Part shown: positions 1 through 18,409 of the stretch, one piece after another
How positions within the stretch are numbered: position 1 is the stretch's first letter
How the letters are laid out: each line of letters starts with the position of its first letter
NCBI RefSeq assembly: GCF_000022065.1
Contig: NC_011898.1
Coordinates: 1,200,001 to 1,264,000, forward strand
Source: Ruminiclostridium cellulolyticum H10
GTDB taxonomy: Bacteria; Bacillota; Clostridia; Acetivibrionales; DSM-1351
DNA: 64,000 nucleotides
Direction of reading: 5' to 3'
Program-made: the position numbers and the translations under genes
The notes under the pieces: model-generated
The model's database searches: none
The model's input: the letters and a program-made list of their open reading frames with translations, nothing else
Told to the model about the DNA's origin: nothing

Positions 1-1140
1 CTATGTATAGATGAATGTATGCAGCAGATCAGTGAAGAAAGTGATGATAGTCCCGAAAACAAAGCTGATAGCGGAAGTGTTGCATATATAATTTATACTT
101 CAGGCTCAACTGGTAGGCCAAAGGGAGTACAGGGACTACACAAGGGAATAATAAACCGTTGTAACTGGATGTGGAGGACATATCCTTATAAAGAGGAAGA
201 AATTTGCTGCCAGAAGACTGCGTTAAGCTTTGTAGATTCAATCTGTGAAATATTCAGTCCTCTCTTAAAGGGTATCAGGCTTGTAATTATTCCGGATGAG
301 ACATTGCTGGATGTACAGCATTTTGTAGATGAGCTTTCAGTAAGCAGAATTAGCAGAATTGTACTTGTTCCTTCGCTGCTTCAGGCGATGCTGGATACGG
401 TACCTGATATAGGAAAAAAGCTTTCTGAGCTAAAGCTATGGGTTACAAGCGGAGAAACCCTGAGAATTGAGCTTATGAAAAGGTTCAAGCAGAGTATACC
501 CAATGGCAGACTTATTAATATATACGGTTCTTCAGAGGTATCGGCAGATGTAACCTACTACGATACTGCTCTAGCAAGTGAAACATTGTCAAGAGTGCCC
601 ATAGGAAGACCAATAGATAATACTGAGATATACATACTTGACAGTAACAAGCAGCCAGTCCCTATTGGGGTAGCAGGAGAATTGTATGTTGCAGGAGACG
701 GGTTGGCAAAGGGTTACTTAAATCGTCCAGAGCTTACCGAAGAAAGGTTTGTTCCAAACCCATATGATACCTCTGGCTTGATGTATAGAATGGGAGATAT
801 GGCAAGGTATTTGCCTGATGGCAATATAGAGTACCTGGGAAGAGGAGACAATCAAGTAAAGATAAGGGGTATACGTGTAGAATTAGGTGAAATAGAGAGT
901 GTACTGTTAAAGTTTCCTTCTGTTAAGGAGGCAGTGGTTGTAAGCTACGGAGAGCTAAAGGGAGATGTAAGGCTAGCAGCATATATAGTTCCAGATGTAA
1001 CGGTACCGGAAGTTGATGAACTGAGGAGCTTTATTAGAGGATATCTGCCGGAATACATGATACCTGTAAGTATAAACTTTGTTGAACATATTCCTTTATT
1101 GCCAAACGGCAAGATTGATAAGAAGAGTTTGCCTGATCCG
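1..1140 (+). repeat. Direct repeat copy 1: adenylation-domain duplication
   Basis: Bases 1-1140 match bases 3181-4320 at a constant offset of 3180 bp (1060 codons, one NRPS module). Counting by eye I find about 20 mismatches in 1140 bases. Identity stops sharply just after the LPNGKIDKK motif, at about 1145. The left limit is outside the window. This is the signature of recent module duplication or gene conversion. Confidence 0.95.
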
Positions 1141-4100
1141 GAGTTATTTAATTTTAAAGAAATGAGTTATATAGCTCCTAGAAATTCTTTGGAAGAAATG
1201 GTTGCATGTATAGTTTCCGGTGTTCTTAATATAGAGAAAGTGGGTATTTACGACAACTTTTTTGATCTTGGAGGACATTCATTACTTGCAACACAAGTAA
1301 TCTCACGTATAAGAAGGGAATTCAGTATAGATATATCATTACAAAGTTTTTTTGAAAAACCAAATATTGTGAACTTAGTAGAATTAATACAAAATTCCCT
1401 TGAAATGAGTAATTATGGAAAAGGTAGAACTATACAAAGGGTATCAAGAGATACAGCTTTACCACTATCTTTTGCACAACAGAGGATATGGTTCTTGGAA
1501 CAGCTTGAACCGGCTAGCTCAACCTATAATATACCAATGGCAGTAGGGCTGCACGGGAGTCTTAACACAGAAGCACTTGAGCAAAGCTTGAATGAAATTA
1601 TAAAACGCCACGAGGTGATGCGTACCACCTTTAGAGAAGTGAATGAACAGCTTGTACAGGTTATTGCTCCTGAGCTTATTATAAAGCTGAATATAGAGAG
1701 CTTTGAACATATAGATCAAGCAATAAGAGAGGAAAAAGCATTACAGTATATTCGTGAACAAGCATGTGTACCATTTAAATTATCAGAAGGATATCTGTTC
1801 CACTTAAACTTAGTAAAAATAGACAAAGAATATTATATTTTACTATTAGTTTTACATCATGCTATTTCTGACGGTTGGTCTAAGGGAGTACTTGTAAGGG
1901 AATTGACAGATTTATACCAGTTCCATTCATCCGGAAAGCCTTCAATGTTAAAGGAGCTAAACATACAGTATGCTGACTACGCCGTTTGGCAAAGAGAGTG
2001 GCTTCAAGGGGAAGTGCTTAAGAAACAATTGGATTATTGGAAGGAAAAGCTGGGCGGGCGATTACCTGTTCTGGAGCTTCCCTATGACCATACAAGGCCT
2101 GCTGTACAGTCCTTCAAGGGTAAAACATATGATTTACAGCTATCCAGACAACTTTCTGATTCTTTAAGGGTACTGTCACGTAAAGAGGGATGTACTCTTT
2201 TCATGCTTCTGCTTTCAGCGTTTCAGGTAATGCTTTATCTCTACACAGGAGAAGAGGACATCCCCATTGGTTCACCTATAGCAGGAAGAAATACCTCCGA
2301 TACTGAGGACTTAATAGGCTTTTTTATAAATACATTGGTTTTTAGAGGGGATTTATCAGGAGATCCATCATATAGCCAGCTAATAAGAAGGATTAAGGAA
2401 ACTTCACTTGAAGCCTATGCTCATCAGGATATACCATTTGACAGAATTGTAGAAGAATTAAAACCAAGTCGTGATTTGAGCAGGCAGCCATTGTTCCAGA
2501 TTATGCTGATACTTCAGAATACACCTATGGATGAAGTGAAGCTGGATGATATAAGTATAAATTCTATTCAGGTAGAAAGTGGAACCTCAAAATTCGATTT
2601 GACACTGGAATTATATGATGATGATGAAATATGGGGTTGGTTTGAGTACAGTACAGACCTGTTTGAAGAAAGTACTGTAGAGCGTATGACTAAGCATTTT
2701 ATAAAGCTGCTTGAGGGAATAGTCCAAAATCCCAAGGAGAGGATTTCTAAGATTCCTCTTATGGGGGAAGATGAAAAAACACTTGTACTAGAGGCTTGGA
2801 ACAGAACCGAGAGAGATTATCCCAATGAATGTATTCATACTATGTTTGAAAAGCAGGCCAAGGCTGCTCCAGATGCCTGTGCCATAATGTATCGTGGAGA
2901 ACACTATACTTATGGTCAGCTTGACAGTCTATCAAGCCGTATTGCAAATTACCTTGTCAAGCAGGGGCTACATACCGGTGAACCTGTAGGTGTTTCAATA
3001 GAACGCTCACCTGAGGCGGTAGCCTGTATACTGGGAATCCTTAAAGCGGGTGGAGCGTATGTGCCACTGGATCCCTCTTATCCTAAAGAGCGTATAGCTT
3101 TTATGCTGGAGGATTCGGGGCTAAAGCTTGTACTTACCAAAAAGGACATATTGAAGGGCGTAGAAACTAACGCCGTTATGCTATGTATAGATGAATGTAT
3201 GCAGCAGATCAGTGAGGAAAGTGATGATAGTCCCGAAAACAAAGCTGATAGCGGAAGTGTTGCATATATAATTTATACTTCAGGCTCAACTGGTAAGCCA
3301 AAGGGAGTACAGGGACTACACAAGGGAATAATAAACCGTTGTAACTGGATGTGGAGGACATATCCTTATAAAGAGGAAGAAATTTGCTGCCAGAAGACTG
3401 CGTTAAGCTTTGTAGATTCAATCTGTGAAATATTCAGTCCTCTCTTAAAGGGTATCAGGCTTGTAATTATTCCGGATGAGACATTGCTGGATGTACAGCA
3501 TTTTGTAGATGAGCTTTCAGTAAGCAGAATTAGCAGAATAGTCCTTGTTCCTTCGCTGCTTCAGGCGATGCTGGATACGGTACCTGATATAGGAAAAAAG
3601 CTTTCTGAGCTAAAGCTATGGGTTACAAGCGGAGAAACCCTGAGAATTGAGCTTATGAAAAGGTTCAAGCAGAGTATACCCAATGGCAGACTTATTAATA
3701 TATACGGTTCTTCAGAGGTATCGGCAGATGCAACCTACTACGATACTGCTCTAGCAAGTGAAACATTGTCAAGAGTGCCCATAGGAAGACCAATAGATAA
3801 TACTGAGATATACATACTTGACAGTAACAAGCAGCTAGTCCCTATTGGTGTTGCAGGAGAATTGTATGTTGCAGGAGACGGGTTGGCAAAGGGCTACTTA
3901 AATCGTCCAGAGCTTACCAAAGAAAGGTTTGTTCCAAACCCATATGATACCTCTGGCTTGATGTATAGAATGGGAGATATGGCAAGGTATTTGCCTGATG
4001 GCAATATAGAGTACCTGGGAAGAGGAGACAATCAAGTAAAGATAAGGGGTATACGTGTAGAATCAGGTGAAATAGAGAGTGTACTGTTAAAGTTTCCTTC

Positions 4101-4671
4101 TGTTAAGGAGGCAGTGGTTGTAAGCTACGGAGAGGCAAAGGGAGATGTAAGGCTAGCAGCATATATAGTTCCAAACGTAACGGTACCGGAAGTTGATGAA
4201 CTGAGGAGCTTTATTAGAGGATATCTGTCGGAATACATGATACCTGCAAGTATAAACTTTGTTGAACATATGCCTTTATTACCAAACGGCAAGATTGATA
4301 AGAAGAGTTTGCCTAATCCGGAGTTGCTAAAAGGTCAATTGGAATTTACTCCTCCCTGTTCAGAGATAGAAAAAGAAATAGCTCAGATGTGGAATGAAGT
4401 ATTGGGAGTAAAAGAATCAGGGATTAATAATAGCTTTTTTGACATGGGTGGACACTCACTTATGGCTACGCAATTAATATCAAGGATACGCTTAAAATTT
4501 GGAGTAGATTTGCAACTTAAAAGTTTTTTTAGTTCGCCTACAATCAAGAGTATTGCAAAATCAGTAGAAGACCAAATTTTAATGGATGCAAGCAGTGATC
4601 AAATAAATGATGTACTTAATCTGCTTGAGGAGCTTAGTGAAGAAGATATTTTAAATATGCTTGATTACTAA
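1..4671 (+). CDS. Nonribosomal peptide synthetase, 5'-truncated (A-PCP-C-A-PCP)
   Basis: The frame is open from base 1, so the gene starts upstream of the window. Counting codons from base 1, the order is: an adenylation (A) domain entered before its A3 motif YTSGSTGRPKG and ending at LPNGKIDKK; a carrier domain (LGGHS, Ser427); a condensation domain with intact HHAISDG (His619/His620); a second complete A domain (A3 YTSGSTGKPKG); and a carrier domain (GGHS, Ser1486). The tail LLEELSEEDILNML may be a docking helix. Aligned by eye to GrsA-PheA, both A domains give V235 D236 C239 V278 V299 S301 I322 A330 D331 K517. Asp235, which normally binds the alpha-amino group, is replaced by Val with Asp one position later, as in beta-alanine-activating domains (recalled code VDWVISLADK). 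I infer two successive beta-alanine residues. The two A domains are about 98% identical in DNA. Core A8 of the second reads RVESGEIE, where Leu is usual. Confidence 0.93.
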   Translation, partial: LCIDECMQQISEESDDSPENKADSGSVAYIIYTSGSTGRPKGVQGLHKGIINRCNWMWRTYPYKEEEICCQKTALSFVDSICEIFSPLLKGIRLVIIPDETLLDVQHFVDELSVSRISRIVLVPSLLQAMLDTVPDIGKKLSELKLWVTSGETLRIELMKRFKQSIPNGRLINIYGSSEVSADVTYYDTALASETLSRVPIGRPIDNTEIYILDSNKQPVPIGVAGELYVAGDGLAKGYLNRPELTEERFVPNPYDTSGLMYRMGDMARYLPDGNIEYLGRGDNQVKIRGIRVELGEIESVLLKFPSVKEAVVVSYGELKGDVRLAAYIVPDVTVPEVDELRSFIRGYLPEYMIPVSINFVEHIPLLPNGKIDKKSLPDPELFNFKEMSYIAPRNSLEEMVACIVSGVLNIEKVGIYDNFFDLGGHSLLATQVISRIRREFSIDISLQSFFEKPNIVNLVELIQNSLEMSNYGKGRTIQRVSRDTALPLSFAQQRIWFLEQLEPASSTYNIPMAVGLHGSLNTEALEQSLNEIIKRHEVMRTTFREVNEQLVQVIAPELIIKLNIESFEHIDQAIREEKALQYIREQACVPFKLSEGYLFHLNLVKIDKEYYILLLVLHHAISDGWSKGVLVRELTDLYQFHSSGKPSMLKELNIQYADYAVWQREWLQGEVLKKQLDYWKEKLGGRLPVLELPYDHTRPAVQSFKGKTYDLQLSRQLSDSLRVLSRKEGCTLFMLLLSAFQVMLYLYTGEEDIPIGSPIAGRNTSDTEDLIGFFINTLVFRGDLSGDPSYSQLIRRIKETSLEAYAHQDIPFDRIVEELKPSRDLSRQPLFQIMLILQNTPMDEVKLDDISINSIQVESGTSKFDLTLELYDDDEIWGWFEYSTDLFEESTVERMTKHFIKLLEGIVQNPKERISKIPLMGEDEKTLVLEAWNRTERDYPNECIHTMFEKQAKAAPDACAIMYRGEHYTYGQLDSLSSRIANYLVKQGLHTGEPVGVSIERSPEAVACILGILKAGGAYVPLDPSYPKERIAFMLEDSGLKLVLTKKDILKGVETNAVMLCIDECMQQISEESDDSPENKADSGSVAYIIYTSGSTGKPKGVQGLHKGIINRCNWMWRTYPYKEEEICCQKTALSFVDSICEIFSPLLKGIRLVIIPDETLLDVQHFVDELSVSRISRIVLVPSLLQAMLDTVPDIGKKLSELKLWVTSGETLRIELMKRFKQSIPNGRLINIYGSSEVSADATYYDTALASETLSRVPIGRPIDNTEIYILDSNKQLVPIGVAGELYVAGDGLAKGYLNRPELTKERFVPNPYDTSGLMYRMGDMARYLPDGNIEYLGRGDNQVKIRGIRVESGEIESVLLKFPSVKEAVVVSYGEAKGDVRLAAYIVPNVTVPEVDELRSFIRGYLSEYMIPASINFVEHMPLLPNGKIDKKSLPNPELLKGQLEFTPPCSEIEKEIAQMWNEVLGVKESGINNSFFDMGGHSLMATQLISRIRLKFGVDLQLKSFFSSPTIKSIAKSVEDQILMDASSDQINDVLNLLEELSEEDILNMLDY
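3181..4320 (+). repeat. Direct repeat copy 2: adenylation-domain duplication
   Basis: Second copy of the repeat at 1-1140. Differences cluster in the 3' half (about 14 of 20 fall after 3840), so the 5' half was homogenised more recently or is under stronger constraint. The carrier domains after the two copies are clearly different in sequence, so only the A domain was copied or converted, not the whole module. Confidence 0.95.
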
Positions 4672-4711: not shown

Positions 4712-6337
4712 ATGGAGCTGACATTTAACCCGCAAAATTTTTCTCCAGAGGAAACGCAAAGCGGTGAAACAAAAAAAGAAATACTTGATCTGTTTTCCGT
4801 AACAGATAGTAGTTTGTTGAAGGCTAGAAATGAAACAGATAGAAGGGTTTCAGAAGTAATAAATGAATTTATAGGTGGAAGTGAAGTAAGCACCGATGTC
4901 AGGTTAAATGATTTGCTGACAAACTTTTGTAAAAGCGAAATACCTGATAAACCGTTAAATGTGGACGAGTACATTGCATTTTTTAACAAAAATATAATAC
5001 GTCATTCTACGCGTACTTCTTCACCCAGATATATAGGGCACATGACTTCGGCACTTCCTTATTTCATTAAGCCACTTGCTGGCTTAATCGTTACACTCAA
5101 TCAGAACGTTGTAAAAGCAGAAACAGCAAAGGTGCTAACTCCATACGAACGTCAAGTAATCGCTATGTTGCATAGGGCAATTTATCAATTTGATTCGGAT
5201 TTCTATAATCATCACATTCAAAATAGGGAAAGTGTGCTGGGAATACTGACCTCAGGAGGGACTATAGCAAACCTTACAGCATTATGGTGTGCCCGTAATA
5301 GTGCGTTAGGCCCGTGTGAAGGCTTTAATGGAGTAGAAAAGGAAGGTATGGATGCAGCTCTGAAATTTTATGGGTACAAGGATGCTGTTATTATAGGCTC
5401 TGCTATGATGCATTATTCCTTTGAGAAAGCTGCAGATCTACTGGGTATAGGGTCTAATAACAGCATCAAGATACCTGTAGATAAAAATAATCATATAGAT
5501 TTATCTGAATTACGTAAAACTGTGGAGGAATGCCATAGGAAAAGAAGGCTTATCATAGCCATAATAGCTAATGCAGGTACAACGGACTGTGGTGCAATAG
5601 ATCCAATAGAGAGAGTTGCTGAAATTGCTTATAAAGAAGGATGCCACTTCCATGTTGACGCTGCATGGGGAGGACCCCTTTTATTTTCTGACAAGTATAG
5701 AAATAGGCTTAAGGGAATTGAACTGGCAGACTCAGTCACAATTGACGGACATAAACAGCTTTATCTTCCCATGGGATTGGGGATGATTTTTATGCGTAAT
5801 CCACAGGCCGCAAAAAGCATTGAAAAAAATTCAAACTATATAATACGACGGGGGTCAATAGATCTTGGAAGGAGATCCCTTGAGGGCTCAAGGCCTGCTA
5901 TGTCAATATACTTACATGCGGCCCTCAATATAATAGCAAAGGGCGGGTATGAATTTCTTATAAATGAAGGCATAAAAAAGGCTGAATATATGGCGGGTCT
6001 AATTAAATCAATGAGGGAATTTGAGCTGCTTACAGAGCCTGATATGAATATGCTCCTATATCGCTTTATTCCTGAACGATTAAGAGGTAAAGCTGCGGAT
6101 CACATGCTTGATGATGCTGATAACGAAGTAATTAATAAATACAATGAACAACTTCAGAAGTTACAGCGCAATGGGGGGTATTCCTTTGTATCCCGTACAT
6201 CTTTTAGTTCAGAATTGTATCAAAACAAATCCCTTGTAGCTTTACGAGCAGTACTGGCAAATCCTCTTACTTGTGAAGCTAATATAAATGAGGTTATCAA
6301 CGATCAGCTAAATATAGCAAAACGTTTAAATTTATAA
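4712..6337 (+). CDS. panP: PLP-dependent decarboxylase, PanP-like (aspartate 1-decarboxylase)
   Basis: This is a 541-residue group II PLP decarboxylase. The pyridoxal lysine is K348 in DGHKQLYLP, preceded by the cofactor-binding HVDAAWGGP. The N-terminal part (SPRYIGHMTSALPYF, then ALNQN-like and ETAK segments) resembles the PanP family of pyridoxal aspartate 1-decarboxylases, which convert L-aspartate to beta-alanine; length also fits. The ATG at 4712 is preceded by GAAGGTG at good spacing. An upstream TTG at 4661 overlapping the NRPS stop is less likely. The position between two NRPS genes, directly after A domains with a beta-alanine-like code, suggests dedicated precursor supply. Alternatives in the same fold are glutamate or 2,4-diaminobutyrate decarboxylase; the latter would give diaminopropane. 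The family call is firm; the substrate is inferred. Confidence 0.85.
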   Translation: MELTFNPQNFSPEETQSGETKKEILDLFSVTDSSLLKARNETDRRVSEVINEFIGGSEVSTDVRLNDLLTNFCKSEIPDKPLNVDEYIAFFNKNIIRHSTRTSSPRYIGHMTSALPYFIKPLAGLIVTLNQNVVKAETAKVLTPYERQVIAMLHRAIYQFDSDFYNHHIQNRESVLGILTSGGTIANLTALWCARNSALGPCEGFNGVEKEGMDAALKFYGYKDAVIIGSAMMHYSFEKAADLLGIGSNNSIKIPVDKNNHIDLSELRKTVEECHRKRRLIIAIIANAGTTDCGAIDPIERVAEIAYKEGCHFHVDAAWGGPLLFSDKYRNRLKGIELADSVTIDGHKQLYLPMGLGMIFMRNPQAAKSIEKNSNYIIRRGSIDLGRRSLEGSRPAMSIYLHAALNIIAKGGYEFLINEGIKKAEYMAGLIKSMREFELLTEPDMNMLLYRFIPERLRGKAADHMLDDADNEVINKYNEQLQKLQRNGGYSFVSRTSFSSELYQNKSLVALRAVLANPLTCEANINEVINDQLNIAKRLNL

Positions 6338-6381: not shown

Positions 6382-9300
6382 ATGTCTGATAATAGATTGG
6401 AAATAATTAAACAGCTTTCGCCGGCAAAGAGGGAACTACTTATTAAGAAGCTTCGGAAAGAGGTTACAGAGAAAAAAGATCAGGGAATACCCAGATATAC
6501 CGGAGATAAACCTGCTCCGCTTTCGTTTTCTCAAGAGAGAATGTGGTTTCTGAATGAACTACAGCCTGATAATCCAGCATACAACATATTTTTTGCTGCA
6601 AGGATTAAAGGCATTCTGGAAATACCAGTACTACAAAAAAGCATAGATGAAATTATAAAGCACCATGAAGCTATGAGGATAGTAATTGGACTATCAGATG
6701 GAAAGCCTGTGCTTATAGAGACTCCGGCATTTAGTGTACCAATAAATTTTATAGATATAACAGATGTTGAACAGGAACTGCAAGAATCAACGATCAGAAT
6801 ACTTGCAACTGAGGAGGCCCAAAAAACCTTTGACCTTACAAAGAGTCCTCTTTTTAGTTTCACGCTTCTAAAGCAAAGTGAAAAAGAAAATGTTTTGTTC
6901 ATAAAAATGCATCATATTATATCAGATGGTTGGTCAATGCGTCTGTTTGTAAAAGAAATGTCAGAGTTATACGAAGGCTATAAGAACGGAAATCCTGTTA
7001 TACTACCTGAACTACCCATACAATATAGAGACTTTTCTTACTGGCAGCGAAATCGGCTAAAGGATAATTTAATGGAATCCCAAATGTTATATTGGAAGCA
7101 ACAACTTGGTAATTGTTCACATATACTGGAACTTCCAACGGATCATCCTCGTCCTATTTCTCAACGTTTTAAGGGAGCAATAAAAAGGTTTTCACTTTCA
7201 CCACAATTGGGGGAAACCATAAGGGAGCTTTGCAAAAGGGAGGGTGTCACTCTTTTTATGACATTGATATCTGCCTTTTATACACTGCTTTACCGTTATA
7301 CTTATCAGGAGGAAATAGTAGTTGGAACACCTATTGCTAATCGTAATTATTTTGAGACTGAAAGACTTATAGGTTGCTTTGTAAATACATTGGCTCTACG
7401 TACAGAACTGAATGGAGAAGATACGTTTAAGGAACTGTTATTACGTGTCCGTAATGTATGCCTTGGTGCTTACGCCAATCAGGATATGCCTTTTGACAAA
7501 TTGGTAGAGGTACTTCATCCTCAGAGAGACTTAAGCAGACAACCGATATTTCAGGTTATGTTTATTTTACAAAACACGCAAATTAACAAAATTGTACAGA
7601 GTGATTTTGATATAAGCCCAATACAGGTTGACAGTGGGGTAGCAAAGTTTGACCTTACTTTGGAGCTTTATGATGAGGATATAATAAATGGTTGGTTTGA
7701 GTATAATACAGACCTTTTTAATGAAGATACCATTGAGCGAATGATAGGACATTTAAAAAACATATTGGAAGGAGTAGTCAAGAACGTAGAACAACGTATA
7801 GCTGACATTGATATATTAGGCGAGAAAGAGCGTAGTATGCTACTGGAAGAATGGAACAATACAGAGTATGATTATCCGGAAAAACTCTGCCTGCATCAAC
7901 AATTCGAGAAGCAAGCAGAAAAGAACCCTGATGGGATTGCTGTAATATTTGAAGAACAACAGCTTACATATAAGGAATTAAACCTGCGTGTAAATCAACT
8001 GGCACACTATTTACGTAGGTTGGGGGTGGGACCTGACACCATTGTAGGAGTTCTGATGGATCGTTCCTTAGAGAGTGCAATAGCATTGGAGGGTATTCTC
8101 AAAGCAGGTGGAGCATATTTGCCATTTGATACCGATTGTCCTAAAGAACGTCTCACATTTATGCTTGAAGACGCACAGGTACCTATATTGGTTACTCAGG
8201 AAAGGCATATTGAAGCACTCAAAGATATAAATACAATAAAAATATGCATAGATGCCAATTATAATGAAATCTCAAAAGAAAGCATTGAAAACCCCGTTAA
8301 TATTGCATCAATGAATAATCTCGCTTATGTAATTTATACATCGGGTTCTACAGGTAAGCCAAAGGGTGCAAAGCTGCCGCATCTTGCATTGTTCAATAGA
8401 ATCAAGTGGGCACAGGGTAATTATAAATTAAATGCTACAGATCGGGTTTTACAAAAAACTCCTATGACCTTTGATGTATCTGTATGGGAATATTTCTGGC
8501 CTCTGGCTGTTGGTGCAGGCTTAGTTATGGCTCGTCCCGGAGGTCATAAGGACAGTGCATATCTGGTAGATGTGATTTCTGAGAAGAAAGTTACTACTAT
8601 ACAGTTTGTACCATCTATGCTAAGAGCATTCCTTGAAGAAAATGAAATTAAAAAAGCAAATTGTCTAAGAAGGGTTATCTCAGGGGGAGAAGCTTTATCA
8701 GTTGAGCTTCATGATAGATTTTTTGAAAAGCTTGATGTAGAACTACATAATCAATATGGTCCGACAGAAGCTGCCATTGATGTAACCTACTGGAAATGTT
8801 ATAAGGGGTGTAAACGGCATACTATACCTATTGGACATCCTCTGGCAAATACAAAGTTATACATACTTGATAAATATTTTAATCCGGTACCGATTGGAGT
8901 GCCGGGAGAATTACATATTTGTGGTGATGGACTTGCATCCGGATATCTAAACAGACCCGAGCTCACAAATGAGAAATTTATATCAAACCCTTTTAGTGAT
9001 AAACATGGGGGTAGACTGTATAAAACAGGTGATTTAGTTCGGTATGCCAATGATGGAAGCATTGAATTTATAGGTAGAATAGACCATCAGGTAAAAATAC
9101 GAGGTTTAAGAATAGAACTGGGAGAGATTGAAGCAATGCTGCTTCAGCATCCTGATGTACATGCATCTGCTGTAATTGTATGGGAAGGCTCAGAAGATGT
9201 AAAACGCCTTGTGGCTTACATTGTTATGGAAAGTGGAAAAGAGTTTAATACTACTGAATTGAGAAGCTATCTAAAGGCTAAACTTCCGGATTACATGGTC

Positions 9301-12300
9301 CCGGCAGTACTTATGAATATTGACGCCCTCCCTCTTACTACCAGTGGCAAGTTAGATAAAAGAGGACTACCGGCAGTTGATTTTTCAAGGGATATGATGG
9401 AACAACCCTTTGCGGCTCCAAGAAATCATGTGGAAGAAACGCTTGCAGGAATATGGGCCGATATACTTAAGCTTGAAGAGGTGGGTATACACGATAGATT
9501 CTTTGAATTAGGGGGAGACTCTATTCTAAGCATACAGGTGGTCGCTAGAGCTCGTCAGTCTGGCATATACATAACTCCAAAACAAATTTTTGAACATCAA
9601 ACAATTGAGGAACTAGCACAAGTGGTAAATACAGAAAAACTTGTTCACTCAGAAGAAGGACTAGTCACAGGAAGAGTGCCGCTCACTCCAGTTCAGCATT
9701 ACTTTTTTGAGCAGAAGCTGGAACAGGCTCATCATTTTAATCAGGCGGTTATACTTGAGGTTGAGGCTGGAGTTAGTTCTTGTATGGTGGAAAATGCGAT
9801 TCAGCAGCTCCTTATACATCACGATGCTCTCAGAATGACAGTTGAGAATCCCGATAGCGGTTGGGGAGAAATCGAAAGGGAGCCTGATTATTCAAGATAT
9901 TATACAGTGCTTGACCTTTCCACACTAAGTGTGGGAGAACAGAAAAAGGAATTACTGAAAGTTTCTTCAGAAATGCAGGCAAGCCTTGATTTAGCAAAAG
10001 GCTCCATATTTAAGGCTGTATATTTTAATATGGGGGCTGAACAGTTGGCAAGGCTGGTAATTATAATTCATCACCTGGTTGTAGACGGAATTTCATGGAG
10101 AGTATTGCTTGAAGATTTACAGACCTTATGTAAGTCAAACAGTTTACCCCAAAAAACCACATCCCTTAAATACTGGGCTGAAAAGCTTGCATCATATGCA
10201 CAATCAACAGATATTGAGAAACACCTAAGCTATTGGCAGTCCTTGTCTGAAGTTAGTTTGCCTGCTTTACCAAGTGACTTTGAGGCGAATTATGATATGA
10301 ATACCGAAGGAGAAAAGCAAACGATATCGGTATTTCTTGGGAGTGGTGAAACAAAGGCACTTCTGGATGAAGTACCTGCAGTTTACCATACACAGATAAA
10401 CGATATCTTGCTCACAGCATTGACTCAGGCATTTGCAGAATGGTCTGGTCAGAATCGTTTGTTGGTTGACCTTGAAGGACATGGTAGAGAAGATATCTTT
10501 ACAGATGTTGATATATCAAGGACAGTAGGCTGGTTTACTACTATATTTCCTGTTTTATTGGATTTTGGTAACAGCGGGGATATAGGGGAAAAAATAGTTA
10601 AAGTAAAGGAAACACTTAGGGAGATACCCTGTGGAGGGTTGACTTATGGTTTACTCAAGTACTTAGGCAAGTATAAAAAGCAATTAAGTAAGATACCTAA
10701 AGGAAGTATACTTTTCAATTACTTAGGTCAATTTGATCAGATTACAAATGAAGATTCTCTATTTAAAGTAATTCAAGAGCCAATTGGGACGACTAGAGGT
10801 GAAAAGAACCTTAGAAGTCACCTTTTAGAAGTAAATGCTCTCATTGGTGGAGGGGTTTTACAAGTAGACTGGGAATTCAGCCGAAAAATATTCAATAAAA
10901 AAACTGTAGAGAAGCTTGCAAAGGGCTTTATAAAGGCATTGGAAGGAATTATTCAATACTGCAAAACAGCTCAAACAAGGTATACGCCATCAGACTTTCC
11001 TATGTCTGGGCTTACTCAGCAAAAGCTCAATGAGATAGTTGGAAATAACATAGAAATTGAGAACATATATCCGCTGGCACCAATGCAGCAGGCTGTATTA
11101 TCATATAACCTGTTTTCAGTTAGCTCGGGTACAAATATACAGCAGCTTTCATGGCTGATTGAAGGTGATTTGGATATTGATCTATTTAAAACCGCTTGGC
11201 AGAAAGTTGTTGATAAATATGCCATACTTAGGACTTCTTTTATATGGAAAAAGCTTAAGAAGCCTCTTCAAGTAGTTTTCCGTTCATTAAGATTGTCATT
11301 TGAAGAGGCTGACTGGAGTCAACTGCCTTCTAAACAGAAGGAACAGGCACTGGCTGACTATATGGAGGGAAACCGTAAGCGTGGTTTTAAAGTATCGGAA
11401 GCTCCCCTTATGTGCTGCTTTATCGCCTGCTTGGGAAAAGGGGTATACAGATTTGTATGGAGTTACTGGACTTCTCTATTTGATAACTGGAGTTGGGCGA
11501 ACATAATAAAAGAAGCATTCCAAAACTATAAGCTTCTATCTGAGGGTAATAATCTACCAGCTATAAGCAGCTCTCCTTTCTCAAGCTATATTCAATGGAT
11601 AATGCAACAGGACGAAGCACAGGCAGCTGACTTCTGGCGAAATGAGCTCAAAGGTTTTAATTCTTCTATGGATATAGGGATTGAGCGACGTACACAGGAT
11701 TATTTAAATAAAAGTTTTGATGCTGGTGAAGTTGAGGTTGGTTTTACTGAAGAAGAAACGAAGCTGCTTACAGCTTTTATCAGGAAGTATAGCATAACTC
11801 TTGGCTCGCTTTTACAGGGGGCATGGGTGCTTCTCTTGTCGCAGTATAGTGGTCAAGAGGACATTCTATACGGAGTATTAACCTATGGACGACCGGCATC
11901 ACTTAAGGATGTAGATTCTATGGTAGGATTGTTTTCAAATAATTTACCTGTACGAGTAAGGGTAGAAAAAGACGTCAATATTGTAGATTGGCTAAGAGAT
12001 ATTCAGGACAAGCAGGTAGTACTTCGTCAGTATGACTATGTAACTGTTCAACAAATTGCAAAGTGGAGTCTTGTACCACTTAGTGTTTTACAAAGAGCAA
12101 TATATGATAGAACATTTATATTTGTAAAAGCTCCAGAGGAAGACTTTTTTTCACAGCAGAGTGAAGATAGTGTAAGACTAAGTCAATATCAAAATACATT
12201 GCAATTAAATATACCTTTGAGGCTATACGCAGAGCCATCAAACAAGATTTTAATAAGGGCAAAATATGATAGTGCAACTTTTAGTGGTGAAGACATTCAA

Positions 12301-12402
12301 AGTATGCTTAGATCCATGAAACAATTATTAGGAAAAATGAGCTCAAGTCCAGATGTGAAACTTTATGACCTTATAAAGAATAAACATGATACAGAACTAT
12401 AA
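6382..12402 (+). CDS. Nonribosomal peptide synthetase (C-A-PCP-E-C*)
   Basis: This 2006-residue protein starts with a short helical leader that may dock to the preceding synthetase. Domains: condensation (about 40-470, MHHIISDGWS at His176); adenylation (about 490-990, YTSGSTGKPKG near 652); carrier with LGGDS (Ser1047), the form typical before epimerases; epimerization (about 1095-1530) with HHLVVDGISW near 1230, EGHGRE and NYLGQFDQ; and a C-terminal condensation-like domain (about 1560-2000). In that last domain HHxxxDG reads WTSLFDN (W1696, T1697, D1701, N1702), so both histidines, including the catalytic one, are gone. By eye the A-domain code is D-V-W-Q-I-G-Q-I-D-K, nearest among those I recall to glutamine (DAWQFGLIDK). 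The residue would be made D. There is no thioesterase or terminal carrier domain. Confidence 0.94.
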   Translation: MSDNRLEIIKQLSPAKRELLIKKLRKEVTEKKDQGIPRYTGDKPAPLSFSQERMWFLNELQPDNPAYNIFFAARIKGILEIPVLQKSIDEIIKHHEAMRIVIGLSDGKPVLIETPAFSVPINFIDITDVEQELQESTIRILATEEAQKTFDLTKSPLFSFTLLKQSEKENVLFIKMHHIISDGWSMRLFVKEMSELYEGYKNGNPVILPELPIQYRDFSYWQRNRLKDNLMESQMLYWKQQLGNCSHILELPTDHPRPISQRFKGAIKRFSLSPQLGETIRELCKREGVTLFMTLISAFYTLLYRYTYQEEIVVGTPIANRNYFETERLIGCFVNTLALRTELNGEDTFKELLLRVRNVCLGAYANQDMPFDKLVEVLHPQRDLSRQPIFQVMFILQNTQINKIVQSDFDISPIQVDSGVAKFDLTLELYDEDIINGWFEYNTDLFNEDTIERMIGHLKNILEGVVKNVEQRIADIDILGEKERSMLLEEWNNTEYDYPEKLCLHQQFEKQAEKNPDGIAVIFEEQQLTYKELNLRVNQLAHYLRRLGVGPDTIVGVLMDRSLESAIALEGILKAGGAYLPFDTDCPKERLTFMLEDAQVPILVTQERHIEALKDINTIKICIDANYNEISKESIENPVNIASMNNLAYVIYTSGSTGKPKGAKLPHLALFNRIKWAQGNYKLNATDRVLQKTPMTFDVSVWEYFWPLAVGAGLVMARPGGHKDSAYLVDVISEKKVTTIQFVPSMLRAFLEENEIKKANCLRRVISGGEALSVELHDRFFEKLDVELHNQYGPTEAAIDVTYWKCYKGCKRHTIPIGHPLANTKLYILDKYFNPVPIGVPGELHICGDGLASGYLNRPELTNEKFISNPFSDKHGGRLYKTGDLVRYANDGSIEFIGRIDHQVKIRGLRIELGEIEAMLLQHPDVHASAVIVWEGSEDVKRLVAYIVMESGKEFNTTELRSYLKAKLPDYMVPAVLMNIDALPLTTSGKLDKRGLPAVDFSRDMMEQPFAAPRNHVEETLAGIWADILKLEEVGIHDRFFELGGDSILSIQVVARARQSGIYITPKQIFEHQTIEELAQVVNTEKLVHSEEGLVTGRVPLTPVQHYFFEQKLEQAHHFNQAVILEVEAGVSSCMVENAIQQLLIHHDALRMTVENPDSGWGEIEREPDYSRYYTVLDLSTLSVGEQKKELLKVSSEMQASLDLAKGSIFKAVYFNMGAEQLARLVIIIHHLVVDGISWRVLLEDLQTLCKSNSLPQKTTSLKYWAEKLASYAQSTDIEKHLSYWQSLSEVSLPALPSDFEANYDMNTEGEKQTISVFLGSGETKALLDEVPAVYHTQINDILLTALTQAFAEWSGQNRLLVDLEGHGREDIFTDVDISRTVGWFTTIFPVLLDFGNSGDIGEKIVKVKETLREIPCGGLTYGLLKYLGKYKKQLSKIPKGSILFNYLGQFDQITNEDSLFKVIQEPIGTTRGEKNLRSHLLEVNALIGGGVLQVDWEFSRKIFNKKTVEKLAKGFIKALEGIIQYCKTAQTRYTPSDFPMSGLTQQKLNEIVGNNIEIENIYPLAPMQQAVLSYNLFSVSSGTNIQQLSWLIEGDLDIDLFKTAWQKVVDKYAILRTSFIWKKLKKPLQVVFRSLRLSFEEADWSQLPSKQKEQALADYMEGNRKRGFKVSEAPLMCCFIACLGKGVYRFVWSYWTSLFDNWSWANIIKEAFQNYKLLSEGNNLPAISSSPFSSYIQWIMQQDEAQAADFWRNELKGFNSSMDIGIERRTQDYLNKSFDAGEVEVGFTEEETKLLTAFIRKYSITLGSLLQGAWVLLLSQYSGQEDILYGVLTYGRPASLKDVDSMVGLFSNNLPVRVRVEKDVNIVDWLRDIQDKQVVLRQYDYVTVQQIAKWSLVPLSVLQRAIYDRTFIFVKAPEEDFFSQQSEDSVRLSQYQNTLQLNIPLRLYAEPSNKILIRAKYDSATFSGEDIQSMLRSMKQLLGKMSSSPDVKLYDLIKNKHDTEL

Positions 12403-12421
12403 AGTAGAAAGGAGAATACCT

Positions 12422-13750
12422 ATGCTTATCGATGATATCATGGGCAAGATATGGGAAAAAAATTATACTCAATACAAAAAAATTTATGATGATGCTATAG
12501 AAACAGATACAAATAAACTGTTTAAAATACTTTCCGAACAGAAAATGGGTATTATTAATTACCCTGGCGTAACTATGAATTTATTGGCTACAAGTGGCTG
12601 CCCTCACAGGTTTAGGGAGGATAGAATGTCAGGTTGTAGTATGTGCAACTACCAGTCTAACTTTTTAAGCTCAAATGCTGCAATGGCAGCACTAAGGGAA
12701 AAAGATATAAACCTATATGCAAAAGCCGTACGTCTAAGTTTTGAAAATGCGAGAGGTGTTATGTCCAAGGCAAATGCATTTGAATTGATTTCTGCAAATG
12801 ACACTCTCAATCAGAAAGAGTTTCCGACCGAAGCTTTCGAAGAATTATTTAGTAAAAATGACCTGTTTGTTAGAAAACCCTATAAATATATTATGGAAAC
12901 GAGGGCTTCGAGTGTAACTAAAGAAAGCATAGAAATTCTAAAAAAGTACATTGGTGAAAAATCAAGGGTATTAATAGAGTTTGGAATAGAAGCTGGAGAT
13001 GAATGGGTTAGAAACCATTGGATAAATAAGAATATAACCGATGAAGAAATAAAAACGGCAATAGCACTGATACATGAAGCTGGTTTCAAGGTTTCTGTTG
13101 ATATAATTATTGGCATTCCCGGATTAACTGAGCAGCAATCTATTGATATATTCAGACAAACAGTTGATTGGGCTGATAAATTATTGGCAGATGAAATAAT
13201 ATGTTTACCATTAAATAGAAAGGAGGGAACAATTCAGGGGTTTCTGTACAGTGAGCTCAAAGACAACCAAAAGCTAAGTGAGGTTGGGTTAGTTAATGGA
13301 GAACACACTGGGCTTCCGTGGTTATTCTCAGTATTGGATGCAGTTTTCTATGTTGCTAAAGAGAGTCCACATGCAATAGATAAGCTAAACTTTGCACAAT
13401 TAAGTACCAGCCAAAACCTTATAGAAAATACCATGTCATACAACAAAGAATTGGGTTGCTCATGTTCGCAATTAATAATAGAAGCTCTGGAACGATTCAG
13501 AAGGGATAAGAATGTTAACGCACTGGGAGAAGTCAGAGAAATTATAAAAAATGATTCCTGCTATGGGGAGTATACCGACTTATTAGAAAAGCAGAAAGGT
13601 GCTGGAGATATTCCAGCCACAATTAATCTTATTATTGGAGAAGTTGCAAAAAAACTTTGGCCTGAAAGCTGGGAGGAAAAAATAAGCAGCTTTGAGAAGG
13701 AATTAGCACTTTATAAAGGCAATAACAAAAAAAATATATGGAGGGATTAG
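12422..13750 (+). CDS. Radical SAM protein with atypical CX11CX2C cluster motif
   Basis: This is a 442-residue protein. Three cysteines, C60, C72 and C75 (GCP...SGCSMCNY), have spacing CX11CX2C instead of the usual CX3CX2C. The GC...GCxMCxY form recalls the Elp3/archaeosine-type branch of radical SAM enzymes, where the first spacing is long. Downstream, EFGIEAGDEWVRNHWINKN and a GFKVSVDIIIGIPGLT strand fit the later part of a radical SAM barrel. The start is the ATG at 12422 after AAAGGAG; an earlier in-frame ATG at 12386 overlaps the NRPS and has no ribosome site. It is one base short of the next gene, implying coupled translation with the PP-loop protein. The reaction is unknown. A peptide or carrier-bound substrate is a guess from context. 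Confidence 0.8.
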   Translation: MLIDDIMGKIWEKNYTQYKKIYDDAIETDTNKLFKILSEQKMGIINYPGVTMNLLATSGCPHRFREDRMSGCSMCNYQSNFLSSNAAMAALREKDINLYAKAVRLSFENARGVMSKANAFELISANDTLNQKEFPTEAFEELFSKNDLFVRKPYKYIMETRASSVTKESIEILKKYIGEKSRVLIEFGIEAGDEWVRNHWINKNITDEEIKTAIALIHEAGFKVSVDIIIGIPGLTEQQSIDIFRQTVDWADKLLADEIICLPLNRKEGTIQGFLYSELKDNQKLSEVGLVNGEHTGLPWLFSVLDAVFYVAKESPHAIDKLNFAQLSTSQNLIENTMSYNKELGCSCSQLIIEALERFRRDKNVNALGEVREIIKNDSCYGEYTDLLEKQKGAGDIPATINLIIGEVAKKLWPESWEEKISSFEKELALYKGNNKKNIWRD

Positions 13751-13751
13751 T

Positions 13752-14741
13752 ATGACTACACAAGAAAAGAAGACCAATAACGTATATCGAGAAAAAATTC
13801 TTAATTCGGTTCTGGAGAAATATTATAATCCGGATTCAAAATATGATTACTGTGTACTTTTCAGCGGTGGAAAGGACAGCACATATTTAGCAAATATAAT
13901 GAAACAAATGAAGGGAGGAAGGGTATGTACACTTACTGTTGATAATGGATTTGAGGATGAAGTTTTCCTTGACCATGTAAAAAAGGTAGCAGATAAAATA
14001 GGTGTTGATAGCTATATCATTACTCCACCGAAAGAAGATTTTGAATTACTTTTTAACTATGTCATAAAAGAGCCAAAGTTAAGAGCGGTTGATTCAAACG
14101 CAATATGTTATTTCTGTGGGCAGTACATAATGAAAGCTGGCATACGATTTGCTGAAGAAAATAATATACCAGTTGTTATTCATGGGATGTCTCCCACTCA
14201 ATATAACCTCCCAGATAAGCTTGAGAATGAAGAGGTAAGCGAGCAAGCTTTTATAAGAAATATAGAATTGCTTGAAATGTATCGTAATAAAAACATACAG
14301 GATGTATATAAACTGGCCAAGACGCTATACAGATATAATAACGACCCACAAATAAAAGAAATAATGGATAAAACCTTTTATCAATCTAAAAAGGTAAAAA
14401 TGATAATACCTTTCCAATATCTCGATTATAATGTTGAAAATATTAAAAGTATTATTGAGAAGGAGTTGGACTGGGTTAATATGTTCGGATATTCAAATAG
14501 TCTTTATATCTCATCAGGATGTCGAATGTTTGAAATATTTTTGCTTATGGAAAAAAAGATACCAGGCTTCCGTGTACACGAGCATAGGGAATTTGCACAA
14601 GATTTTAATAAAGGTCATGTAACAAAAAAAGCCTATGATTATGCTCTTGATGTAGCTAAAACATTACAGGATCAAGAAGAGATATCGCCTACAATGCATA
14701 GCCTGATAAAGAGAATTGGTCTTGAAGAGGAACTTTTATAA
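13752..14741 (+). CDS. PP-loop ATP pyrophosphatase (AANH superfamily)
   Basis: This 329-residue protein has a PP-loop, FSGGKDSTYL (SGGKDS at residues 38-43), which binds ATP in the adenine nucleotide alpha-hydrolase fold. It also has a CX2C pair (C119, C122) in a region like those of QueC and sugar amidotransferases of the WbpG/PseA group. These enzymes adenylate a carbonyl and let ammonia or sulfide attack. In the closthioamide pathway of Ruminiclostridium cellulolyticum an AANH protein (CtaC) makes thioamides on carrier-bound substrates. Here the gene sits between a radical SAM gene and a stand-alone carrier in an NRPS cluster, so amidation or thioamidation of a carrier-bound intermediate is plausible but inferred. 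It starts at the ATG after GGAGGGATTAGT. Confidence 0.82.
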   Translation: MTTQEKKTNNVYREKILNSVLEKYYNPDSKYDYCVLFSGGKDSTYLANIMKQMKGGRVCTLTVDNGFEDEVFLDHVKKVADKIGVDSYIITPPKEDFELLFNYVIKEPKLRAVDSNAICYFCGQYIMKAGIRFAEENNIPVVIHGMSPTQYNLPDKLENEEVSEQAFIRNIELLEMYRNKNIQDVYKLAKTLYRYNNDPQIKEIMDKTFYQSKKVKMIIPFQYLDYNVENIKSIIEKELDWVNMFGYSNSLYISSGCRMFEIFLLMEKKIPGFRVHEHREFAQDFNKGHVTKKAYDYALDVAKTLQDQEEISPTMHSLIKRIGLEEELL

Positions 14742-15027: not shown

Positions 15028-15873
15028 ATGAAAAGAATAGGTGTTGTTGGTGCCGGAGTTATGGGTATTGGGGTAGCACAGAATTTTGCCCAAAAAGGAT
15101 ATCCAGTTACTCTGGTAGATATCAATAAGGACATATTAAAACATGCAGAAAGTGAAATACGTAACAATATACGTTTTTACAGTTTATTCAATAAAAGTGA
15201 GAAGCTTGAGGATGCTGATACAATTATAGCAAGGATAAATTTTACGGTAGAACTTCAGGAACTAGAAGCTTCAGACTTCGTAGTAGAAAATATAACTGAA
15301 AAATGGGAAGAAAAAAAGGAAGTGTATGAAAAACTTGCTTTGATATGCTCTGAATTATGTATATTATTGGTAAACACTTCATGTATACCAATAACTAGAA
15401 TAGCGGCATTAACCAAAAATCCTGATAGAGTGATAGGTACTCATTTTATGAACCCTGTACCTATGAAAACTGTAATTGAAATTATAAGAGGTTACCACAC
15501 TTGTGAAGAAACAATTGAAGCAACAAAAGATCTGCTGAGGGGAATAGGTAAGGAGTGTATCATTGTAAATGATTTGCCGGGATTTGTGTCAAATAGGATT
15601 TCCCATTTATATATGAATGAGGCAGCATTTGTTGTACAGGATCAGGTTGCAAGTCCTGAAGCAGTAGATGATATATTTAAAAAATGCTATGGACATAAAA
15701 TGGGGCCTCTTGAAACGGCTGACCTTATAGGACTTGATACGGTGGTAAATTCTCTAAATGCTCTTTATGAAAGCTTTCAGGACACTAAGTTTCGATGCTG
15801 TCCATTGCTAAGTAAAATGGTAGATGCGGGGCTGTTAGGCAGAAAATCCGGAAGGGGTTTCTATGAATACTAG
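15028..15873 (+). CDS. 3-hydroxyacyl-CoA dehydrogenase family protein (FkbK/ZmaG-like)
   Basis: This is a 281-residue NAD-dependent dehydrogenase with an N-terminal Rossmann motif, IGVVGAGVMGIGVA, and the family features GTHFMNPVP and NDLPGFVSNRI. Length matches 3-hydroxybutyryl-CoA dehydrogenases. With the following ACP, acyl-CoA dehydrogenase and FkbH-like genes it makes the known set that turns 1,3-bisphosphoglycerate into hydroxymalonyl-ACP. In that pathway this enzyme oxidises the C3 alcohol of glyceryl-ACP to the aldehyde. The ribosome site is GAGG. The role is taken from the zwittermicin and FK520 pathways. Confidence 0.88.
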   Translation: MKRIGVVGAGVMGIGVAQNFAQKGYPVTLVDINKDILKHAESEIRNNIRFYSLFNKSEKLEDADTIIARINFTVELQELEASDFVVENITEKWEEKKEVYEKLALICSELCILLVNTSCIPITRIAALTKNPDRVIGTHFMNPVPMKTVIEIIRGYHTCEETIEATKDLLRGIGKECIIVNDLPGFVSNRISHLYMNEAAFVVQDQVASPEAVDDIFKKCYGHKMGPLETADLIGLDTVVNSLNALYESFQDTKFRCCPLLSKMVDAGLLGRKSGRGFYEY

Positions 15874-15900: not shown

Positions 15901-16140
15901 ATGGAGGAAATTAAAGTTAAAATAAGAGCATTTTTGAGCCGCTTTTTTAGGAAACATGAACTAAAGGATAATGAGGATATATTTGCTCTCGGATTTGTGA
16001 ATTCACTTTTTGCAATGCAATTAGTTATGTTTTTAGAAAAGGAATTTGGAATTAGAGTAGATAATAAAGATCTTGACTTAAATAATTTTAGAACTATAGA
16101 TACTATTACTGATTTAATCATAAGCAAAAAGGGAGAGTAA
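15901..16140 (+). CDS. Acyl carrier protein of the hydroxymalonyl-ACP cassette (FkbJ/ZmaD-like)
   Basis: This 79-residue carrier protein has the site motif GFVNSLFAMQLV. The phrase GFVNSLF is typical of carriers that hold glyceryl/hydroxymalonyl units (FkbJ, ZmaD). It lies between the 3-hydroxyacyl dehydrogenase and the acyl-CoA dehydrogenase, as in other such cassettes. The basic N-terminal helix (FLSRFFRKH) is unlike the acidic carrier at 14769. Confidence 0.92.
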   Translation: MEEIKVKIRAFLSRFFRKHELKDNEDIFALGFVNSLFAMQLVMFLEKEFGIRVDNKDLDLNNFRTIDTITDLIISKKGE

Positions 16141-16163: not shown

Positions 16164-17300
16164 ATGATAATAGAATTAACGCCTGAACAGCTTAAGTATC
16201 AGGAAGAAGTCAAGACATTCGTAGATACTGTAATAAAACCGATGGCACAACAAAATGATAGAGAAGAACAGATGCCCGCAGAACTCATTAAAAAGATTGG
16301 GGAGAATGGACACTTAGGCTCTGTTATCGCTAAAGAATACGGTGGACAGGAACTTGATATGATATCCATTGGACTATTGAATGAAGAGTTCGGTCGTGGA
16401 TGCTCTTCTGCTAGGAGCTTACTTACAGTTCATGGGATGGTAGCTCTTGCGATTGATAGGTGGGGTACTCAAGAACAGAGAAATTACTGGCTGCCTAGAA
16501 TGTCTAAGGGGCATATAATAGGGGCATTTGGCTTAACTGAACCAAATGTAGGCTCTGATGCTAAAAGCATAGAGACTACAGCAGTTCTAAACGGAGATTG
16601 CTATGTACTGAATGGGAAAAAAAAGTGGATTACTATGGGGCAAGTTGCAGATGTTTTCCTAATTTTTGCTCGGTGTGAGGATAAGCCTACAGCATTTCTT
16701 GTTAACAGAGATACTTCTGGCTTTTCAACTAAGCCTATAAAGGGTTTAATGGGTGCAAGGGCCTCTATGGTTGCAGAGTTGATAATGGAAGACTGTCATA
16801 TTCCTAAAGAGAATATAGTAGGGAGAGTTGGTACGGGACTATCACATGTTGGACTAAACAGTCTTGATTATGGCAGGTATACTATAGCATGGGGATGCGT
16901 CGGATTGGGAGAAGCATGTCTTGAAGAGAGCGTGCGTTATTCAAGAAAAAGAAAGCAGTTTGGACAGCCATTAAGACAAAACCAGCTAATACAGAAGATG
17001 GTAACAGAAATGTCAGTGAATATTAAAGCTGCGAGGCTTCTATGCCTCAATGCTGGCTATCTAAAGGATATTGGAGATCCTGACACAATAATGGAAACAT
17101 GGAATGCAAAATACTTTGCAGCAAAAATGGTAGTTAAGGTGGCAAGTGATGCAGTACAGATTCATGGAGCTAAAGGGTGTTGCAATGAATATCCCGTAGA
17201 AAGATACTATAGGGATTCCAAAATTAATGAAATAATAGAAGGAACAACTCAGATGCATGAGCTGCTGATTGCTACAAATGTATTTAGAAATATCAGATAA
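16164..17300 (+). CDS. Acyl-CoA dehydrogenase family flavoprotein (FkbI/ZmaE-like)
   Basis: This is a 378-residue FAD-dependent acyl-CoA dehydrogenase. Visible features are AFGLTEPNVGSD in the middle domain, the FAD-binding RKQFGQPL, and the C-terminal YRDSKINEIIEGTTQ where the catalytic base normally sits. In hydroxymalonyl/methoxymalonyl-ACP pathways this protein oxidises the aldehyde on the ACP to the carboxylate. Its cassette neighbours support that role over general fatty-acid oxidation. AAGGAAGG precedes the ATG. Confidence 0.9.
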   Translation: MIIELTPEQLKYQEEVKTFVDTVIKPMAQQNDREEQMPAELIKKIGENGHLGSVIAKEYGGQELDMISIGLLNEEFGRGCSSARSLLTVHGMVALAIDRWGTQEQRNYWLPRMSKGHIIGAFGLTEPNVGSDAKSIETTAVLNGDCYVLNGKKKWITMGQVADVFLIFARCEDKPTAFLVNRDTSGFSTKPIKGLMGARASMVAELIMEDCHIPKENIVGRVGTGLSHVGLNSLDYGRYTIAWGCVGLGEACLEESVRYSRKRKQFGQPLRQNQLIQKMVTEMSVNIKAARLLCLNAGYLKDIGDPDTIMETWNAKYFAAKMVVKVASDAVQIHGAKGCCNEYPVERYYRDSKINEIIEGTTQMHELLIATNVFRNIR

Positions 17301-17356: not shown

Positions 17357-18409
17357 ATGAAAGAACTTGATTGTAGGGGAACGAAAGTAAAATGCGTTGT
17401 ATGGGATCTAGATAATACAGTATGGGACGGAGTTTTACTTGAAGATGGAAATGTTAATTTATTTAACGAGGTTGCATCAATTATAAAGACCTTGGATAGC
17501 AGGGGTATACTCCAATCAATAGCGAGCAAAAACGACTACGATTTAGCATTAGCTAAGTTAGAAGAATTTGGCCTAAGGGAATACTTTATCTATCCTCAGA
17601 TTAACTGGAATTCAAAATCATTTTCCATTAAGGAAATTGCAAAAGCTATTAATATCGGAGTTGATACACTGGCTTTTATAGATGATCAACAGTTTGAACT
17701 AGAAGAAGTTAAGTTTGCTGTGCCAGAGGTGTTTTGTATAGATGCATCTAATTTAGGTAATTTGCTGGATATCCCTGAGATGAATCCAGTTTTTATAACA
17801 GAGGATTCTAAAAATAGGAGGCTTATGTATGTAAGTGATATTGAGCGAAATAAGCTGGAGGATGAATTTGAAGGACCTAAAGAAGAGTTCCTTGCTTCTC
17901 TGAATATGTCATTTACAATTATGCATGTACAGGAGGGAGACTTGCAGCGTGCCGAAGAACTTACAGTCAGAACACATCAGTTAAACACAACAGGGTATAC
18001 ATACTCCTACGAGGAGTTAGATAGTTTTCGAAAATCTAATAAACATAAATTATTGATAGCAAGTCTTGAGGATAAATTCGGTACATATGGGAAAATAGGA
18101 CTTGCTTTGGTAGAATGTAATGATGATGAATGGATATTGAAGATGCTTCTAATGTCTTGTAGAGTTATGTCCAGAGGTGTAGGAACTATAATGATAAATT
18201 ATGTTGCAGAACAGGCTAAAAAGGCTGGAGTACGGATGCTGGCTGAATTTATACCAAACGATAGGAATAGGATGATGTATATAACATATAAATTCGCAGG
18301 CTTTCAAGAAATTCAGGAAAAAAATGGGCTTTGTATTCTGGAAAAGGACACCAATGAAATACCACCATATCCAGACTATATCCGAGTTGTTAAAGAGGAT
18401 ATAGCTTAA
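17357..18409 (+). CDS. FkbH-like HAD-superfamily glyceryl-ACP synthase
   Basis: This 350-residue protein has an N-terminal HAD domain with motif WDLDNTVWDG (D17, D19), a FIDDQQFELEEV motif near residues 100-112, and a C-terminal GNAT-like half (about 180-335) containing LLMSCRVMSRGVG. This two-part layout is diagnostic of FkbH proteins, which dephosphorylate 1,3-bisphosphoglycerate and load glycerate onto an ACP. It is the last gene of the natural-product operon, ending before a strong terminator. No O-methyltransferase follows, so the unit would stay as hydroxymalonyl unless a methyltransferase lies elsewhere. Confidence 0.92.
   Translation: MKELDCRGTKVKCVVWDLDNTVWDGVLLEDGNVNLFNEVASIIKTLDSRGILQSIASKNDYDLALAKLEEFGLREYFIYPQINWNSKSFSIKEIAKAINIGVDTLAFIDDQQFELEEVKFAVPEVFCIDASNLGNLLDIPEMNPVFITEDSKNRRLMYVSDIERNKLEDEFEGPKEEFLASLNMSFTIMHVQEGDLQRAEELTVRTHQLNTTGYTYSYEELDSFRKSNKHKLLIASLEDKFGTYGKIGLALVECNDDEWILKMLLMSCRVMSRGVGTIMINYVAEQAKKAGVRMLAEFIPNDRNRMMYITYKFAGFQEIQEKNGLCILEKDTNEIPPYPDYIRVVKEDIA

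Follow-up and report, generated by a model that had tools for sequence, protein, structure and literature searches.

Runs of β-alanine have been described in closthioamide, another product of Ruminiclostridium cellulolyticum, and in AFC-BC11, each with three consecutive β-alanines made by non-modular or iterative systems. In the closthioamide pathway, CtaC (Ccel_3258; published residues D77, S78, C154, C157, and C284) thioamidates carrier-bound poly-β-alanine, and CtaC homologs near nonribosomal peptide synthetase (NRPS) genes have led to the proposal that thioamide tailoring was recruited by NRPSs (PMC6772006). For the adenylation (A) domains of VinN, IdnL1, CmiS6, HitB, and evolved TycA, a conserved equivalent of Asp235 holds the β-amino group; this residue is also lost in McyG, which has Val, and in α-hydroxy-acid A domains, with Val, Ala, or Gly at position 235 (PMC11253843). 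In cryptophycin, unit C is methyl-β-alanine (PMC6835634). Because module 2 of CrpD is a C-A-KR-T leucic acid module (PMC9229328), module 1 is by collinearity the unit C module. R. cellulolyticum also carries CcelB, a cryptic cis/trans-AT PKS/NRPS cluster (YP_002505303-31; Behnken and Hertweck 2012, PMC3250452). Judged by its architecture, the region studied here most likely corresponds to CcelB, and no product of this cluster was found in the literature searched.

We analyzed a window of 64,000 bp (bases 1,200,001-1,264,000) of the single-contig R. cellulolyticum genome (4,068,724 bp). Its first base falls inside the first A domain (A1) of a two-module NRPS of 2193 amino acids with the order C-A-T-C-A-T, encoded at genome positions 1198090-1204671 (L016:3090-9671), so that the gene starts upstream of the window at 1198090. 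The active-site motifs of the C and T domains of this protein are intact. The features of the locus are collected in Table 1.

Table 1. Features of the tandem-module locus, in window coordinates.
Feature	Position	Strand	Remarks
Duplicated 1702-bp tract, first copy	-550 to 1151	+	1-1151 inside window
A1, first β-alanine-type adenylation domain, 3' part	1-1140	+	Domain start upstream of window; code VDCVVSIADK
Val235-Asp236 codons of A1	232-237	+	gtagat; from alignment
T1 carrier domain, first module	1150-1390	+	DNFFDLGGHSLLATQ; edges approximate
C domain, second module	1456-2781	+	Pfam PF00668, residues 486-927; HHxxxDG intact (LHHAISDGWS)
Duplicated 1702-bp tract, second copy	2630-4331	+	C terminus of the C domain, C-A linker, complete A domain through A10
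A2, second β-alanine-type adenylation domain	2845-4314	+	Code VDCVVSIADK
Val235-Asp236 codons of A2	3412-3417	+	gtagat
T2 carrier domain	4375-4560	+	NSFFDMGGHSLMATQ; Pfam PF00550
PanP, pyridoxal-dependent aspartate 1-decarboxylase	4712-6337	+	TIGR03799
Next NRPS, C-A-T-E-like-C	6382-12402	+	A code DVWQIGQIDK
Stand-alone radical SAM protein	12386-13750	+	Directly before CtaC-like gene
CtaC-like AANH (PP-loop) protein, candidate thioamide synthetase	13752-14741	+	Same operon as tandem β-alanine modules
3-Hydroxyacyl-CoA dehydrogenase	15028-15873	+	
ACP-like ORF	15901-16140	+	
Acyl-CoA dehydrogenase	16164-17300	+	
FkbH	17357-18409	+	TIGR01686, 287 bits (cutoff 147)

Pocket residues were assigned by alignment to PheA, a reference that was verified at 100% against PDB 1amu and that yields its own known code, DAWTIAAICK. 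Both A1 and A2 read V235, D236, C239, V278, V299, S301, I322, A330, D331, and K517, in agreement at 10 of 10 positions with the by-eye reading of the preliminary description, which had also located the Val/Asp codons correctly. An Asp at position 235, named there as the outcome that would speak against the reading, was found in neither domain. The earlier comparison with VDWVISLADK, which we take to be a β-alanine A-domain code, was likewise reproduced, with seven identical and two conservative positions (V/I and I/L); the third difference is C/W. The literature search returned no match for ten-letter codes including VDWVISLADK, and the code of a Nostoc relative, VDWVISLANK, is one residue off it. 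Chance is not a useful explanation of VDCVVSIADK because the code sits within an intact A domain. A1 and A2 fit the class of CrpD module 1, xDxxxSx[A/G]D-K (no Asp235; D236, S301, a small residue at 330, D or N at 331, and K517), and the same pattern of D236/S301/D331 type without D235 is present in CrpD and in most VD-class relatives. Having Val235, the two domains fall outside the VinN type, defined by Asp at PheA position 235. A KR insertion is absent from both. A search of solved structures retrieved mainly generic NRPS A domains, and an AlphaFold2 model of A1, based on an alignment of four rows, was of poor quality (mean pLDDT 51).

The loss of Asp235 together with Asp236 had been taken to fit a β-amino acid. 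This is not a general signature, since the stand-alone VinN/HitB-type enzymes (VinN, IdnL1, CmiS6, and HitB) adenylate β-amino acids and keep Asp235, whereas A1 and A2 carry Val235 (PMC11253843). Thus, pocket logic alone is no proof of β-alanine. A narrower signature is useful: D236, S301, A/G330, and D/N331 without D235 define one NRPS class that includes CrpD. A1 and A2 belong to this known class, and their code by itself is ordinary annotation. The cryptophycin producer, Nostoc sp. ATCC 53789, has its matching A domain in module 1 of a CrpD-like gene, with panD further on in the cluster. The pocket of CrpD module 1 (GDAVFSLADK) is 51% identical to that of R. cellulolyticum, and an aspartate decarboxylase is present in the cryptophycin cluster too. 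In contrast to the locus described here, CrpD has a single such module, which takes methyl-β-alanine and has Gly at 235, and the decarboxylase is of the pyruvoyl PanD type, not PanP. CrpG is a methylaspartate/aspartate decarboxylase.

The two A domains lie within a duplicated tract whose copies share 97.8% DNA identity, with 37 mismatches when compared at a constant offset of 3180 bp. Beyond the tract, the C domains share ~50% identity, and the T domains cannot be aligned in fixed register. By sequence, this is the record of one A domain recently duplicated or gene-converted into a second, older module. Because both codes lie within the 97.8%-identical tract, they are not independent and represent one specificity observation; the preliminary description was right that both A domains read VDCVVSIADK, but the second code is a copy of the first and not separate evidence. 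The tandem A domains nonetheless count as a genuine observation of module number. Two successive β-alanines had been called unusual, which is true of modular NRPSs but not of closthioamide and AFC-BC11, with their three in a row. Among the relatives whose A domains were extracted, we found no second tandem VD-class pair; in the Paenibacillus genomes examined, two VD-class domains lie ~15 kb apart on different proteins. Each part of the R. cellulolyticum locus is of a known kind, and two such modules in a row beside a relative of a thioamide synthetase are an unusual arrangement.

The gene that follows the tandem modules in the operon encodes PanP. Its probable start, ATG 4712, lies 40 nt past the stop codon of the two-module NRPS, behind a Shine-Dalgarno-like ggaaggtgat, within a frame open from TTG 4661. 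The protein scores 617.5 bits against the NCBIfam equivalog TIGR03799, a narrow margin over the curated cutoff of 606.1, as compared to at most 157 bits against models of DABA, tyrosine, histidine, and glutamate decarboxylases, and it contains the PLP-fold motifs HVDAAWGG and DGHK. A separate canonical PanD is encoded elsewhere in the genome, at 2.14 Mb, and PanP is absent from all 390 other genomes among the 391 of the class that were searched; thus, PanP looks dedicated to the pathway. Carrier-bound decarboxylation of aspartate of the bolagladin type was considered and set aside, because BolN and AfcP use carrier-bound aspartate and PanP uses free aspartate. Enzymes of the BolN/AfcP kind belong to PLP fold classes other than that of PanP.

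The association between pocket and decarboxylase extends beyond this genome. In a collection of 72,556 plasmid records, 16 contained PanP (E up to 1e-60), 283 matched the pocket, and at least 9 fell into both groups. PanP occurred in 9 of the 30 top pocket-match plasmids, as compared to none of the top 40 matches of a control, the Gln-like A domain of the next NRPS in the same cluster (Fisher P = 2e-4); these counts include related strains, which are not independent, and by genus the linkage is found in six lineages. The four best pocket records, from Nostoc UHCC 0926, Chroococcidiopsis, Gloeocapsopsis, and P. polymyxa M1, are also those with the three best PanP matches and the sole other PanP above 50% identity. 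Distances between PanP and VD-class A domains are ~20 kb or less in Nostoc, Gloeocapsopsis, P. polymyxa, Halomonas, and Mycetohabitans; in Chroococcidiopsis, the two are on one plasmid, 56 kb apart. The PanP and A-domain trees agree on the cyanobacterial trio, and the rest of the branching is not resolved. Furthermore, two Paenibacillus relatives with the codes VDCTVSLADK and VDCTISLADK have PanD, which is unrelated to PanP, in the same operon. That two unrelated aspartate decarboxylases pair with the same class of A domain argues more strongly for β-alanine than any other single point. Of the 14 VD-class loci that had large flanks, 4 (Bradyrhizobium, Paracoccus, Alteromonas, and Rhizobium) showed no aspartate decarboxylase nearby.

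The pocket search of genome contigs returned only two Paenibacillus loci, and no close A-domain relatives outside its own genome were found among 391 genomes of the class and 398 of the phylum. In the PanP-linked NRPS clusters of Nostoc UHCC 0926, Gloeocapsopsis dulcis, Chroococcidiopsis CCNUC1, and Paenibacillus polymyxa M1, one VD-class module was seen each, versus two in R. cellulolyticum, and the three cyanobacterial codes end in ANK rather than ADK. In Mycetohabitans endofungorum B5 (L049:13383-27292), a fragmented PanP gene adjoins an NRPS that lacks a VD-class domain and has DIHYIAH-DK as its first A code; this locus is possibly a decayed β-alanine cluster.

Two modules for β-alanine best explain the observed code, A-domain duplication, and order of domains, together with the profile assignment of PanP and the linkage of the pocket class to aspartate decarboxylases; we give this reading a probability of about 0.87. 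PanP would convert L-aspartate to β-alanine, A1 and A2 would each activate the free β-alanine and load it onto the adjacent T domain, and with both modules acting in cis, a β-Ala-β-Ala unit would be joined to the growing PKS/NRPS chain. In the predicted pocket, Val replaces Asp235, and Asp236, Asp331, or both probably hold the β-amino group, backed by Ser301. The substrate proposed in the preliminary description is thus supported by the adjacency of PanP, the CrpD match, and the co-occurrence of pocket and decarboxylase, while the reason based on Asp235 is weak. That only one of the modules works, the second A copy being recent, redundant, or decaying and the product containing a single β-alanine, seems unlikely to us. 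The copy is indeed very recent, and 21 nonsynonymous versus 9 synonymous codon differences suggest little constraint so far; however, all 10 code residues are equal, neither A copy has lost a core motif, and the C and T domains that belong to the second module are diverged and retain their motifs.

CrpD module 1, with its equal D236/S301/A330/D331 pattern, takes methyl-β-alanine, and a substituted β-alanine such as 3-aminoisobutyrate, 2,3-diaminopropionate, or isoserine could be activated here as well. We consider this improbable, as the adjoining PanP yields unsubstituted β-alanine and the annotated downstream genes include no mutase, methyltransferase, or diaminopropionate-forming gene. It is more improbable still, to the point of being hardly credible, that Asp235 was lost because the substrate, an α-hydroxy or aryl acid, has no amino group at that place. 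Replacement of D235 by Val, Ala, or Gly is known in such A domains and McyG (PMC11253843), but the carboxylates of D236 and D331, Ser301, the CrpD match, and the adjacent PanP all indicate an amino acid, and neither A1 nor A2 contains an inserted KR domain.

The β-alanine modules would be placed near the end of a long assembly line. This line likely starts with C-A(interrupted)-T, a trans-AT, KS-KR-ACP, and KS-ACP-aminotransferase-C-A-T-Cy-A(Cys-like, oxidase insert)-T; continues likely with KS-AT-KR-DH and then ACP/T-Cy-A(Cys-like)-T-oxidase; and likely ends with C-A(β-Ala)-T-C-A(β-Ala)-T followed by C-A(DVWQIGQIDK, putative Gln/Glu-like)-T-E-C. The two Cy-A modules (L017:392-11611 and L015:13537-18093) have nitroreductase-like oxidase domains, one of them inside the A domain, which suggests thiazoles. 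A class III aminotransferase domain at these loci stands behind a KS-ACP. The last C-like domain of the NRPS downstream of PanP is without HHxxxDG (SYWTSLFDNWS), and no thioesterase was seen among the annotated genes of the cluster. The gene row from the 3-hydroxyacyl-CoA dehydrogenase to FkbH indicates a putative extender-unit set of the hydroxymalonyl/methoxymalonyl-ACP type.

The operon further encodes a CtaC-like protein. The R. cellulolyticum genome encodes CtaC at 3,812,153-3,813,280, and a start at residue 22 places D77, S78, C154, C157, and C284 at the published positions. The CtaC-like protein is a paralog of CtaC (29% identity, E 1e-32) with SGGKDS at residues 38-43 and with C119, C122, and C257 aligned to C154, C157, and C284. 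Because CtaC, like its paralog, falls short of the WbuX model's cutoff, the WbuX name should not be read as the function of this protein. Related proteins are encoded in three more genomes, two from the genus and one from the order, where the same stretch also contains A-domain genes. The nearest NCBIfam model of the radical SAM protein encoded directly upstream is RaSEA (62 bits, cutoff 212), so that it has no close curated family. Elsewhere in the genome, at positions 1165829-1172257 (L014:5829-12257), an NRPS A domain is interrupted twice: a radical SAM and B12-binding segment separates motif A2 from A3, and a WbuX/CtaC-like AANH domain, whose PP-loop is degenerate (SGGRGA), separates A8 from A10.

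The locus resembles the closthioamide system (CtaC-CtaG) in its predicted β-alanine run on a carrier protein and in an AANH enzyme with a PP-loop and three-Cys motif. It differs in that closthioamide biosynthesis is NRPS-independent, with an ATP-grasp enzyme predicted to load β-alanine and no modular A domains. As CtaC acts on carrier-bound poly-β-alanine and a CtaC-like protein is encoded beside the tandem modules, thioamidation of β-Ala-β-Ala suggests itself: the modules would build the dipeptide unit, and the CtaC-like protein would thioamidate one or both amides on the carrier. We put forward such a thioamidated β-peptide from a modular line only tentatively, by analogy with CtaC; a different amide could be the substrate of the paralog.

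Together, these data allow the substrate of two modules in a cryptic cluster to be predicted firmly. The finding goes beyond ordinary annotation through its tandem copy, its dedicated PanP, and its paralog of CtaC. They also offer a practical rule: an xDxxxSx[A/G]D-K A domain beside PanP or PanD can be called β-alanine-type on more grounds than its code. At the same time, they correct the view of Asp235, whose loss alone is no marker of β-amino acids. Should β-Ala-β-Ala prove to be the substrate of the CtaC paralog, thioamide tailoring of β-alanine would have been recruited by modular NRPSs, and the pathway would be a modular counterpart of closthioamide within the same bacterium.
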